Notes under the pieces: generated by a model | What the model was told of the DNA's origin: nothing | Seen by the model: the letters and a program-made list of their open reading frames with translations, nothing else | Databases searched by the model: none | Shown here: one piece after another, positions 53,310 through 61,918 of the stretch | Layout: each line of letters starts with the position of its first letter | How positions within the stretch are numbered: position 1 is the stretch's first letter | NCBI RefSeq assembly: GCF_000312045.1 | Contig: NZ_HE978634.1 | Span: forward strand, 2,745,875-2,809,874 | Reading direction: 5' to 3' | Length of the DNA stretch: 64,000 bases | DNA from: Noviherbaspirillum massiliense JC206 | GTDB lineage: Bacteria > Pseudomonadota > Gammaproteobacteria > Burkholderiales > Burkholderiaceae_D | Program-made: the position numbers and the translations under genes

Positions 53310-54338
53310 ATGGCACTGATTCCAACCACAATTCTGACCGGCTTCCTCGGTGCTGGGAAAACTACCTTGCTCAACCGCATGCTGCGCGAGCCGCACGGCC
53401 ACAAGATCGCCGTGATCGAAAACGAATTCGGCCAGGAAAACATCGATAACGAAATCCTGGTGCAGGAGAGTAACGAACAGATCGTCGAGATGAACAACGG
53501 CTGCATCTGCTGCACCGTGCGCGGCGATCTGATCGTGGCGCTGGAAACCCTTGGACGCAAGCGCGACGAGGGTGAATTGCAGTTCGACCATGTGGTCATC
53601 GAAACCACGGGCGTGGCGAACCCGGGGCCGGTCGCGCAAACCTTTTTCATGGATGACGCAGTCGCCTCCCGCTATCTGCTCGACGCCATCATCACCGTCG
53701 TCGATACCAGACATGCGATGCAGCAGCTCGACGAACATGAAGAAGCCCAGCGGCAGGTTGGTTTCGCCGACCGGATACTGCTGTCCAAAACCGACCTGGT
53801 CGACGCTGCCCAGACAGAAACGCTGATCGCGCGCCTTCGTCGCATCAACCCGCGCGCCACAATCGGCAGGACCGAATTCGGCAAGGTGCCGGTCAGCGAA
53901 GTGCTTGACCTGCGCGGCTTCAATCTGAATGACAAGCTGGAAATCGACCCGGCCTTCCTCGCGGAAGAAGAACATGAACATCATGATTGTGACGAACATT
54001 GCGATCATGATCATCACGATCACCATCACGCCCATCATTCGGATGGCATTGCTGCCTTTGCATTCAAGAGCGACCGCCCGTTCGATGTGGCGAAGCTGGA
54101 TGAATTTCTGGGCAGTCTGGTGCAGGTTTATGGACCGCGCATGCTGCGCTACAAAGGGGTCCTGTGGATGGAAGGCGCCGACCGCAAGGTGGTTTTCCAG
54201 GGCGTCCATCAGATGATGGGAACCGATATTGGGGCGAAATGGAGCGATTCCGAACCGCGCGGCAGCAAAATGGTGTTTATCGGCAAGAATCTGCCGAAAG
54301 ACATTTTTATTCGCGGTCTGGAACAATGTTTGGTATAA
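53310..54338 (+). CDS. COG0523/CobW family GTPase, metal chaperone type
   Basis: A 342-residue G3E GTPase. Walker A GFLGAGKTTLL (11-21), ENEFGQENIDNEIL, the metal-binding NGCICCTVRGDL (CxCC) and the nucleotide motif SKTDLVD. A His/Asp-rich stretch near residues 215-245 (HEHHDCDEHCDHDHHDHHHA) is a likely zinc or other metal reservoir. The C-terminal CobW_C domain follows. Related proteins deliver zinc under scarcity. No obvious Zur box in the 100 bp upstream. Located next to a DksA gene. Confidence 0.93.
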   Translation: MALIPTTILTGFLGAGKTTLLNRMLREPHGHKIAVIENEFGQENIDNEILVQESNEQIVEMNNGCICCTVRGDLIVALETLGRKRDEGELQFDHVVIETTGVANPGPVAQTFFMDDAVASRYLLDAIITVVDTRHAMQQLDEHEEAQRQVGFADRILLSKTDLVDAAQTETLIARLRRINPRATIGRTEFGKVPVSEVLDLRGFNLNDKLEIDPAFLAEEEHEHHDCDEHCDHDHHDHHHAHHSDGIAAFAFKSDRPFDVAKLDEFLGSLVQVYGPRMLRYKGVLWMEGADRKVVFQGVHQMMGTDIGAKWSDSEPRGSKMVFIGKNLPKDIFIRGLEQCLV

Positions 54339-59520: not shown

Positions 59521-60417
59521 TTACTGTGGCGCCGAAGCAGCGCTGCCATGGGATTGACGCAAGGCGGGATTGGCAGCCGGGTTGGTGTTGGTCGTACCCG
59601 CAGGTGCGGCCGGAGTTCCTGAAGAAGCACCGGTGCCGGTCGCTCCTGTCTGTGCTGCTACCGAACCCGGATTGACCACCATCGAGGGCGGCGCGGTTGT
59701 ACCGGGGGTTGCAGGCATGGCGGCGGGAGCAGCCGGAGAAACGGATGACTGCGCGGATGACTGGGGCAATGCTTGTTGTACCGGCGGTGCCGCCGTCGGG
59801 GCGGCGCCAGGCTGTTGCGTTCCCGGCAGGGAAGGAACACCCGGTGCGGCCGAAGACGGGGCTTGCGCAGCGGGAGCGGCCGGTGCAGCTGCCGCCGGCA
59901 TCTGGGGCGCGAGTACACCCGACGGACGAGCCTGAGCGGCAGCACCTGGTGCTGCGGACGCCGGGGATGATGCGGGCGCCGAAAGCGGCGAATTGCTCGC
60001 CAGATTCACTTGCGCCTTTGCGCTTTCCGGCAATTCCACCCGCTTGCTGGCACCACCATCCGACAGCAGTACGTAATCCTTGTGCACTTCCTTGACGATC
60101 ACACCCGGCACCACTTCCCTGCCCGCTCTCACCGCCTGCGCTGGCTTGCCGTCGGCGCTGAGAATCGCCACACTTTCACTTGCAGTGCCGGACATGATGA
60201 TGCCGCGCAACTGATAATTGGTCGCGACATCGGCCTTGCCGGCGCGTCCTCCAAACAGGGAGGACGCCGAATCCACGTTGACTTCAGCATTCGCCACGCG
60301 CGGCGGCGCGGCCACCGGGCGCAAGGGCGGCTTGAACAATTGCAGCCCCCAGTACGCGAGCGACGCGCACAGGGCCAGGAACAGAACAAAACTCGCAACC
60401 AGGGGCAAGCGTTTCAT
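59521..60417 (-). CDS. gspC: Type II secretion GspC-like protein with long Pro/Ala tail
   Basis: A 298-residue inner-membrane protein linking the T2SS platform to the secretin. Membrane helix near residues 7-28, a homology region (about 55-135) with YQLRGIIMSGTASESVAILS and the DYVLLSDGGASKRVEL end. Residues about 140-298 are low-complexity Pro/Ala/Ser/Gly. No PDZ domain is visible, although many GspC proteins have one. Last gene of the run gspD-E-F-C; no gspG follows. A structured repeat separates it from gspF. Confidence 0.82.
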   Translation of the reverse strand: MKRLPLVASFVLFLALCASLAYWGLQLFKPPLRPVAAPPRVANAEVNVDSASSLFGGRAGKADVATNYQLRGIIMSGTASESVAILSADGKPAQAVRAGREVVPGVIVKEVHKDYVLLSDGGASKRVELPESAKAQVNLASNSPLSAPASSPASAAPGAAAQARPSGVLAPQMPAAAAPAAPAAQAPSSAAPGVPSLPGTQQPGAAPTAAPPVQQALPQSSAQSSVSPAAPAAMPATPGTTAPPSMVVNPGSVAAQTGATGTGASSGTPAAPAGTTNTNPAANPALRQSHGSAASAPQ

Positions 60418-60431
60418 TGGTTCTTGTCCTC

Positions 60432-60698
60432 GAGGGTGTTATGAAGCAGGTAGGGGGCCGCGCAGCCCCGCGAACTGGTCGAATGCAAGGCGCGCCGACG
60501 CGTCGTAGCGGTGCTACGGCAAGGAGCCGCAACGCTGCAGGCGGCCCGTTCCCGGGGCTGCCCGCAGGGTTCATGCGAGAAGGGCGCCCCGCGGTGTCGC
60601 GTGCCGCTTGCAGTGCCCGCACTGCGGCGCATCCCGCTCCTGGCGGATGCATCCCTTCTCGCATGAACGCGACCCCCTGCCTGCTTCATAACACCCTC
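60432..60698. repeat. Three-armed inverted-repeat element between gspF and gspC
   Basis: A 267-bp element. Outer 31-bp inverted repeats (60432-60462 and 60668-60698) with two mismatches include GTTATGAAGCAGG / CCTGCTTCATAAC. Arm A is 60462-60561: GCAGCCCCG / CGGGGCTGC at its base and CGTAGC-GGT-GCTACG at its tip. Arm B is 60569-60668: a 16-bp perfect repeat (60569-60584, 60653-60668) and GCAGTGC-CC-GCACTGC at its tip. The arms abut each other and the outer stem, giving a three-way junction. The right end touches the gspF stop codon. Confidence 0.85.
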
Positions 60699-61918
60699 TA
60701 CCGTACCAGCTGATTGATTTCAATGATCGGCATGAGCACCGCCAGCACGATCAGCAACACCACCACCCCCATGACCAGGATCAGCGCCGGCTCAAGCAGG
60801 CCGGCGATCGTCATCGCGCGCCGCTCCAGATCCTGTTCCTGCGCATTCGACGCGCGCTCCAGCATCGCCGGCAATTCCCCGGTCACTTCGCCGGCGCGTA
60901 TCATGTGGATCAGCATTGGCGGAAAATGCTTGTGAGCCGACAGGGCGCGGGCCAGCCCCACGCCTTCGCGCACGCTGTTGGTCGCGTCTTCCACCTGCTC
61001 GCGCATGGCAACGTTCGACAAGGTGTCACGGCTGGTCTGCAGCGCACGCAGGATGGGCACGCCAGAGCCGGTTGTGATCGCCAGCGTGCTGGCAAAGCGC
61101 GAGGTATTCAGGCTGCGCTCGAACTTCCCATATAGCGGCGCGGTCAGCAGCCAGCTGTGCCAGCGGTACTTGATCTCGGGATTTTTCAGCGCCCTGTTCC
61201 ATGCGAAAAACACGCCCGTCAGGATGATCAGGACGATCCAGCCATAGCTGCGCACGAAGTCCGAAATGGCCAGCATGATTACCGTCAGCAAAGGCAGTTT
61301 CTGCTTGGTATTGGCGAACACCGACACGATCTGCGGGACAACATAGGCCAGCAGGAAGATCACGATCGCAAATGCCACCACCGTCACGATGGCCGGATAA
61401 GTAAAGGCAAGCCGAACCTTTTGCACCAGCGAATTGCGCCGCTCGATATAGTCGGCCAGGCGCGACAGCACCCGGGCCAGCTGGCCGATCTGTTCGCCGG
61501 ACGTAACCAGCGCCCGGTAAATGTCGGCGAAGTCTCGCGGATGGCGCGCCAGCGCATCCGACAGCGAGGAGCCGCCCATGACTTCCGCGCGGATCGATGC
61601 AATCAGGTCACGTACGTAAGGCCGCTCGGCCTGTTCCAGCAAGGCGGAAAACGCTTGTTCCAGCGGCAGGCTGGCTTCCAGCAGGCTGGCCAGCTGGCGT
61701 GTGAACAGGGCCAGCTCGGTGGTCGACAGACGGTCGCCGAAGGCACGCCTGCGCGCCTGGCCGAGTTCGTCGACCTGGGCGGCAATCGCTTCCACCGTGA
61801 TCGGCACCAGGCCCTGCGTACGCAAGTCGGAGCGCGCGGCGCGCGCATTGTCGGCATTGACGACACCTTTCCGGGTGGCGCCAACGGCATCAACGGCTTC
61901 GTAGCGGAATGCTGGCAC
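60698..61918 (-). CDS. gspF: Type II secretion inner-membrane protein GspF
   Basis: Polytopic platform protein of the T2SS; 406 residues. Starts MPAFRYEAVDAVGATRKGVV. It shows the two T2SSF domains, with helices near residues 170-190, 220-240 and 375-400, and the conserved TRQLASLLEASLPLEQAF block. Its stop codon overlaps the structured repeat by one base. Order gspE, gspF, repeat, gspC. Confidence 0.96.
   Translation of the reverse strand: MPAFRYEAVDAVGATRKGVVNADNARAARSDLRTQGLVPITVEAIAAQVDELGQARRRAFGDRLSTTELALFTRQLASLLEASLPLEQAFSALLEQAERPYVRDLIASIRAEVMGGSSLSDALARHPRDFADIYRALVTSGEQIGQLARVLSRLADYIERRNSLVQKVRLAFTYPAIVTVVAFAIVIFLLAYVVPQIVSVFANTKQKLPLLTVIMLAISDFVRSYGWIVLIILTGVFFAWNRALKNPEIKYRWHSWLLTAPLYGKFERSLNTSRFASTLAITTGSGVPILRALQTSRDTLSNVAMREQVEDATNSVREGVGLARALSAHKHFPPMLIHMIRAGEVTGELPAMLERASNAQEQDLERRAMTIAGLLEPALILVMGVVVLLIVLAVLMPIIEINQLVR

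Follow-up and report, generated by a model that had tools for sequence, protein, structure and literature searches.

The window, by which we mean the whole 64,000-nucleotide stretch analysed here, carries a type II secretion operon on its minus strand, and a 267-bp palindromic element lies between two of the operon's genes, gspF and gspC (Table 1). The gspF product scores 532 bits for GspF, for which the curated NCBIfam cut-off is 424; the gspC product scores 37.5 bits for Pfam T2SSC (cut-off 27) and falls below both NCBIfam GspC cut-offs. A sequence-only reading of this DNA had described a palindrome with outer inverted repeats and two abutting hairpins of about 100 nt, said to occupy the gspF–gspC gap exactly and to end on the gspF stop codon. 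The architecture is as described, with an outer stem of 30 bp enclosing the two abutting arms, each interrupted by internal loops, in what amounts to a three-way junction. The coordinates and the end on the stop codon also stand, the last base of the element being the G of the gspF stop TAG (60698-60700); the gap is filled except for the ribosome-binding region of gspC, with 14 bp between the element and the gspC ATG. The predicted fold is very stable on either strand, with z = -8.4 for the + strand as DNA and z = -8.3 for the - strand as RNA, and in both cases 0 of 200 shuffles were as stable.

Table 1. The element, its parts and its neighbours, in window coordinates.
Feature	Position	Strand	Remarks
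gspC, downstream neighbour	59521..60417	-	Pfam T2SSC
Whole element, 267 bp	60432..60698	+	orientation taken with arm A first
Left half of outer stem	60432..60461	+	bears the terminal inverted repeat GAGGGTGTTATGA... on its outer side
Arm A, hairpin module	60462..60561	+	near-invariant core bases AAGGC, CGAC, GGCAAGGAG, AAC
Junction between arms, 7 nt	60562..60568	+	
Arm B, second module copy, inverted	60569..60668	-	scored by the arm A model
Right half of outer stem, terminal inverted repeat	60669..60698	+	
TA adjoining right end	60699..60700	+	completes the gspF stop TAG (- strand) together with the last base of the element
gspF, upstream neighbour	60698..61918	-	over the curated NCBIfam GspF cut-off

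How are the two arms related? With a covariance model of arm A, termed R1, arm A itself reaches 113.2 bits (+ strand) and 42.2 bits (wrong strand), and arm B reaches 45.2 bits (- strand) versus 15.3 bits (+ strand). Since the arms are near-palindromic, it is the strand preference of about 30 bits in arm B that is the telling figure, and by these scores the element looks like two inverted copies of one hairpin module placed between terminal repeats. Other genera contain relatives that have one arm and a variety of ends, and in further families (G361, G372) module matches lie next to each other as inverted pairs.

The element has company in its own genome (4.19 Mb in three contigs), where contig C1 contains a second copy (53963-54175) that matches it at 83% over positions 25-240 and, at 3006562-3006632, a fainter match that belongs to a one-armed relative with other ends, GAGCGTCTAACAAAATG. 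This relative extends over about 3006540-3006670 (L106 641-780), its ends differ from those of the window element, and a copy on a Massilia litorea plasmid (L314) has ends, GAGCGCCTAACAAAA, that are similar to it. A search of the family, run at a threshold of E <= 0.01 and with two candidates scored per genome so that copy numbers are lower bounds, found matches in 146 of 294 genomes, and further full copies were recovered from Herbaspirillum and Collimonas. With R1 and 20 candidates scored per genome, matches appeared in 105 of 195 family genomes and 27 of 44 genera; with 13 candidates per genome across the order, to which all the genomes scanned belong, they appeared in 85 of 300 genomes, 52 of 135 genera and 31 families (the last counted from the table), copy numbers again being lower bounds in both scans. 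When 150 candidates were scored, a single genome yielded up to 32 matches. As a rough check on these E-values, R1 was run over 78,689 bases around lexA, comprising 25 lexA loci of 30 fetched, one per genome, and produced one match, with E 0.24; the same loci were meant to probe for the Bordetella repeat discussed below, and no Bordetella-like genome was recognised among them. A phage search found none matching the window element or a one-armed relative, a plasmid search with the window element gave as its sole match the gspF of one Cupriavidus plasmid, and a plasmid search with one Herbaspirillum copy gave none.

For a larger set, 115 copies were gathered by the arm A core pattern. Setting aside 20 whose outer stem scored below 20 left 95, of which 91 could be delimited, and 80 of these 91 are 262-268 bp long. 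Departures from this length go both ways. A copy of 343 bp (L039 1371-1713, from G024) has an additional hairpin in arm A, and the same terminal repeats bound shorter elements, of 56-99 bp, in G141 (L092, L093, L095) and G162 (L094); one of them, L092, still has part of arm B and resembles a deletion derivative. On contig C1 of a genome of the Herbaspirillum genus (G026), ten module matches have an identical score of 77.3 bits, which suggests a recent burst of one subfamily.

At the locus itself, gspF was found in all 15 genomes of the genus that were compared and ends at the same residue in each, and the element is absent behind gspF in 14 of the 15. We regard the element as mobile because its own genome holds a second copy and because the gspF–gspC interval lacks it in those 14 genomes. 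Copies at other loci and empty sites, both of which the sequence-only reading had proposed to look for, are therefore in hand, and the outcome it had named as counting against its proposal, a lack of both related elements and conserved pairing, is not what we observed, although the pairing is kept among copies at other loci and not among gspF–gspC gaps. In one genome (G100; loci L062 and L050), a stretch of about 20 bp (TTTTCAACTCAGGACACTAG) is common to the gspF–gspC gap and to the sequence flanking an element copy at another place.

Where does the element insert? TA flanks both sides of 51 of the 91 delimited copies, the left side of 64 and the right side of 66; the bases directly before 60432 are TC, which leaves the window copy with TA at its right end alone. 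Three filled sites in Herbaspirillum could be set against element-less relatives (four, four and one, respectively), and at each of these sites the closest empty relative aligns without a gap at the junction once one TA is removed, which implies a 2-bp target. These closest empty sites read CA, CA and TT, and the filled sites have TA on both sides; either the target became TA before insertion or the TA comes with the element. A true duplication of a target TA appears likely. Stop codons were considered as a preferred target, since 20 of 76 gene 3' ends beside 84 copies use TA plus the G of the element as their stop. This idea is weakened by one of the sites (L220), whose empty counterpart (L347) reads CAG, such that the insertion itself created the TAG stop, two codons before the stop of the relative. 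Stops formed by TA and the element's G may therefore be made by insertion.

The element has no transposase gene of its own, and its ends offer a candidate for the enzyme that moves it, as the GAGGGTGTTATGA... end is close to the ends of IS5-family insertion sequences (ISs) in the genus. Two genomes (G023 and G215) contain ends reading TAGAGSSTGTTATGA, to within one mismatch, that are paired at a spacing of 863-866 bp; two of the three pairs (L090 and L091, 865-866 bp) enclose open transposase frames, which score 211 and 203 bits for the IS5 family model NF033580 (cut-off 110), and the third is broken. In Herbaspirillum, similarly, an 819-bp IS5-family IS has ends GGGCGTGTTCACAC, which are close to the GGGCCTGTTCACA seen on many copies there. 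Two genera, then, each have one element end type that matches a resident IS, a match that holds at the level of the genus: in the two genomes bearing the first ISs, G023 and G215, the delimited copies (L036 and L031) end differently, and in the genome of the window element no IS5_3 transposase is complete, a fragment matching over 57 positions being all there is, and no further end like that of the window element was found at one mismatch. The transposase search in the Herbaspirillum genus put 3 of 11 genomes over the cut-off, and no IS with the GAGCGTGTTATG ends carried by some copies in that genus (L040, L041, L043-L045) was found there. Considering these end comparisons together, the element is probably a passenger of IS5-family transposases. 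In a separate genome, G257, the C-terminal part of an IS5-family transposase has 58 short matches, and nearly all of those listed lie at contig ends; this genome probably contains a high-copy IS that broke the assembly.

Beyond the ends, there is the fold. Alignment A1 comprises 22 copies of 263-268 bp from different places, collected by BLAST out of 25 loci examined for ends; L039, at 343 bp, and L046 and L049, in which no matching outer repeat was found, were left out. On these 22 copies RNAalifold proposes 87 pairs, 58 of which are changed on both sides. In a count of 80 pairs, 57 have two-sided changes, and 0 of 500 shuffles did as well. Paired cells amount to 95.6%, versus 76.2% in shuffled alignments and no more than 41.7% when partners are slid; the covariation score, 0.529 here, falls to 0.159 when shuffled and to 0.121 or less with slid partners. 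These figures are to be read with the caveat that the structure was derived from the same sequences and that the copies are related to one another, each of which tilts the comparison in its favour. The two-sided changes, at 297 cells versus 74, are the stronger part of this evidence. They sit in the outer stem, where 27 of 30 pairs have them, and in the basal stems of the arms; the inner core of arm A has them in only 2 of 13 isolated pairs, and its core bases, listed in Table 1, are nearly fixed among the 22 BLAST-collected copies. Across 100 distinct copies, the mean top-base frequency is 0.72 in the basal stem of arm A, 0.77 in the outer stem and 0.91 in the arm A core, the last being biased upward because the copies were picked by the core pattern. 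The covariation suggests that the fold itself is maintained, in addition to the ends. As for the strand that folds, G-U exceeds A-C by 144 to 40 in the basal stem of arm A and by 166 to 90 in the outer stem, among related copies, whereas arm B shows no excess (9 to 15). The balance leans towards a folded + strand, with arm B in disagreement and the copies not independent.

An unexpected kinship came from a one-armed relative in another genus (L286), which by BLAST matches 23 places in each of two Neisseria gonorrhoeae records. These records (NZ_CP119140.1 and NZ_CP119142.1), each 2.17 Mb long, are filed as plasmids and are evidently chromosomes. The first of the places that was read (L312) is what we take to be a complete Correia element, both by its ends, TATAGTGGATTAA, and by the motifs TCAGGACAA, CCGGTACGG and AAATTTAAA in its core. 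Correia elements end in 26-bp repeats, TATAGTGGATTAA... R1 itself, run on one of the 2.17-Mb chromosomes, matches 25 places at E <= 10 and 22 at E < 1, the best at 31.9 bits and E 0.005. Among 23 matches that were fetched, 22 have Correia repeats on both sides and one has a repeat on one side, and only 2 Correia repeats were counted in the 58,034 bases around them. By model score, then, the Correia elements of Neisseria share the module; single scores are modest, and it is the pattern that convinces.

The accessible portion of one source gives the three motifs just named as those of the Correia core, a length of mostly 104-108 or 153-157 bp, insertion at CA sites as well, and RNase III processing of the transcripts (PMC2649163); the accessible text of another calls them the first prokaryotic MITEs to be described (PMC10969869), and in the literature as far as it was accessible they are also said to alter gene expression. 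Like the Correia elements, also known as CREE or NEMIS, our element has terminal inverted repeats continuous with a hairpin, the same core module by covariance model, what may be a preference for TA, and many copies. A CREE, however, has one arm and ends in TATAGTGGATTAA, whereas the window element ends in GAGGGTGTTATGA... and packs two inverted modules into 267 bp, with a three-way junction and IS5-like ends. Another potential relative is the beta-proteobacterial repeat element (BRE), a repeat of about 90 bp in Bordetella and other betaproteobacteria according to the accessible text of its description (Hot et al. 2011, PMC3110155). By that description BREs are GC-rich, usually intergenic and suspected to be mobile, and their size and range fit one arm of our element; they differ in being described as single or tandem repeats, and that text makes no mention of terminal repeats, a transposase or a fold.

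We therefore come to favour a reading, which we hold with a probability of roughly 0.75, in which the sequence inserted at the gspF stop codon is a two-module, Correia-like, non-autonomous transposable element. It has the terminal inverted repeats of a MITE, several copies at different sites, and ends shared with ISs (at the genus level and not for all end types). The mobile, structured, MITE-like repeat envisaged in the sequence-only reading is supported by the other copies, the empty sites, the IS5-family-like terminal repeats and the pairing kept through double changes. Its mention of REP/BIME-like sequences fares differently: a REP is a palindrome of 20-40 bp with a GTAG or CGTC tag, as defined in the accessible part of the source (PMC3733652), and 267 bp with long terminal inverted repeats is something else. 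That a RAYT (Y1) transposase moves the element as one of the REP/BIME type is thus barely conceivable, even if a GC-rich, intergenic palindrome with internal mismatches is reminiscent of that class. The same reading had also entertained an RNA element acting on the operon, and the very stable fold of the - strand transcript, placed between gspF and gspC, could be so construed. Yet the gspF–gspC interval goes without the element in 14 of the 15 genomes of the genus compared, copies sit at other loci in both orientations, and an Rfam search with the window element returned no match up to E 1. As a conserved function, regulation of the gsp operon is refuted, and we judge a structured RNA regulating gsp very improbable.

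A closer competitor is an ordinary MITE, derived from an IS5-family element by internal deletion, in which only the ends matter for movement and the palindromic inside is incidental. Some of the ends are IS5-like, and the 56-99 bp elements in G141 and G162 indicate that the full inside is not needed for paired ends to occur. Against it, the module recurs in the 52 of 135 sampled genera mentioned above and with various ends; the stems covary, and most delimited copies keep the full length. IS5-family MITEs resemble our element in their IS5-like ends and their want of a transposase gene, but what the window element has inside is not the remnant of an IS; it is a module that is conserved and covaries. 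The ordinary MITE seems to us a poor prospect. A different objection concerns the pairing itself, which might stem from copying rather than selection if one side of a stem were rewritten from the other by gene conversion or template switching. Template switching is known in long palindromes, and the outer stems are often perfectly paired yet strongly different between copies. Against it, mismatched positions in the internal loops stay nearly invariant in the 22 copies instead of becoming pairs; the arm A core, with so few isolated pairs changed on both sides, says little either way. We consider pairing by copying unlikely, though worth keeping in view.

Returning to the Correia-like element, how might it move, and what might its fold be for? 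An IS5-family transposase, supplied in trans, would act on the terminal repeats and move the element, preferring TA. Less firmly, the fold would be kept because the element must fold in single-stranded form at some stage of its life. The best candidate for that stage would be RNA in read-through transcripts, where the fold could insulate neighbouring genes or undergo RNase III processing as in Correia elements; we lean towards such action at the RNA level at a little under even odds. It is weakened by the 84 copies with called neighbours, whose gene-end classes (24/23/21/16, with crude ORF calling) show no clear terminator or orientation bias with respect to genes, a result that also tells against the RNA element acting on the operon. 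The next choice would be single-stranded DNA during transposition, a possibility that we rate at about one in three.

More broadly, we find it somewhat probable that the Correia elements of Neisseria, probably the BREs of Bordetella, and the two-armed elements described here make up one superfamily that spans the betaproteobacteria. Its members would share a hairpin module whose fold and loop bases are under selection, and this module would have been coupled to the ends of different resident ISs, borrowing their transposases, with the three-way form bearing two inverted modules. In the accessible portion of the literature, Correia elements are reported as confined to Neisseria, with the mechanism of their mobilisation undetermined (PMC2649163); our own literature search, which was only partly aimed at this link and had subscription papers mostly outside its reach, found no work connecting Correia elements with such an order-wide module. 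If the superfamily is real, Correia elements would have relatives well beyond Neisseria and, in addition, a candidate class of enzyme to mobilise them. A repeat long thought special to Neisseria looks like a branch of a much wider family, and with that family extending across the order and some of its members having IS5-like ends, the question of how Correia elements are mobilised becomes one that can be tested in harmless soil bacteria.
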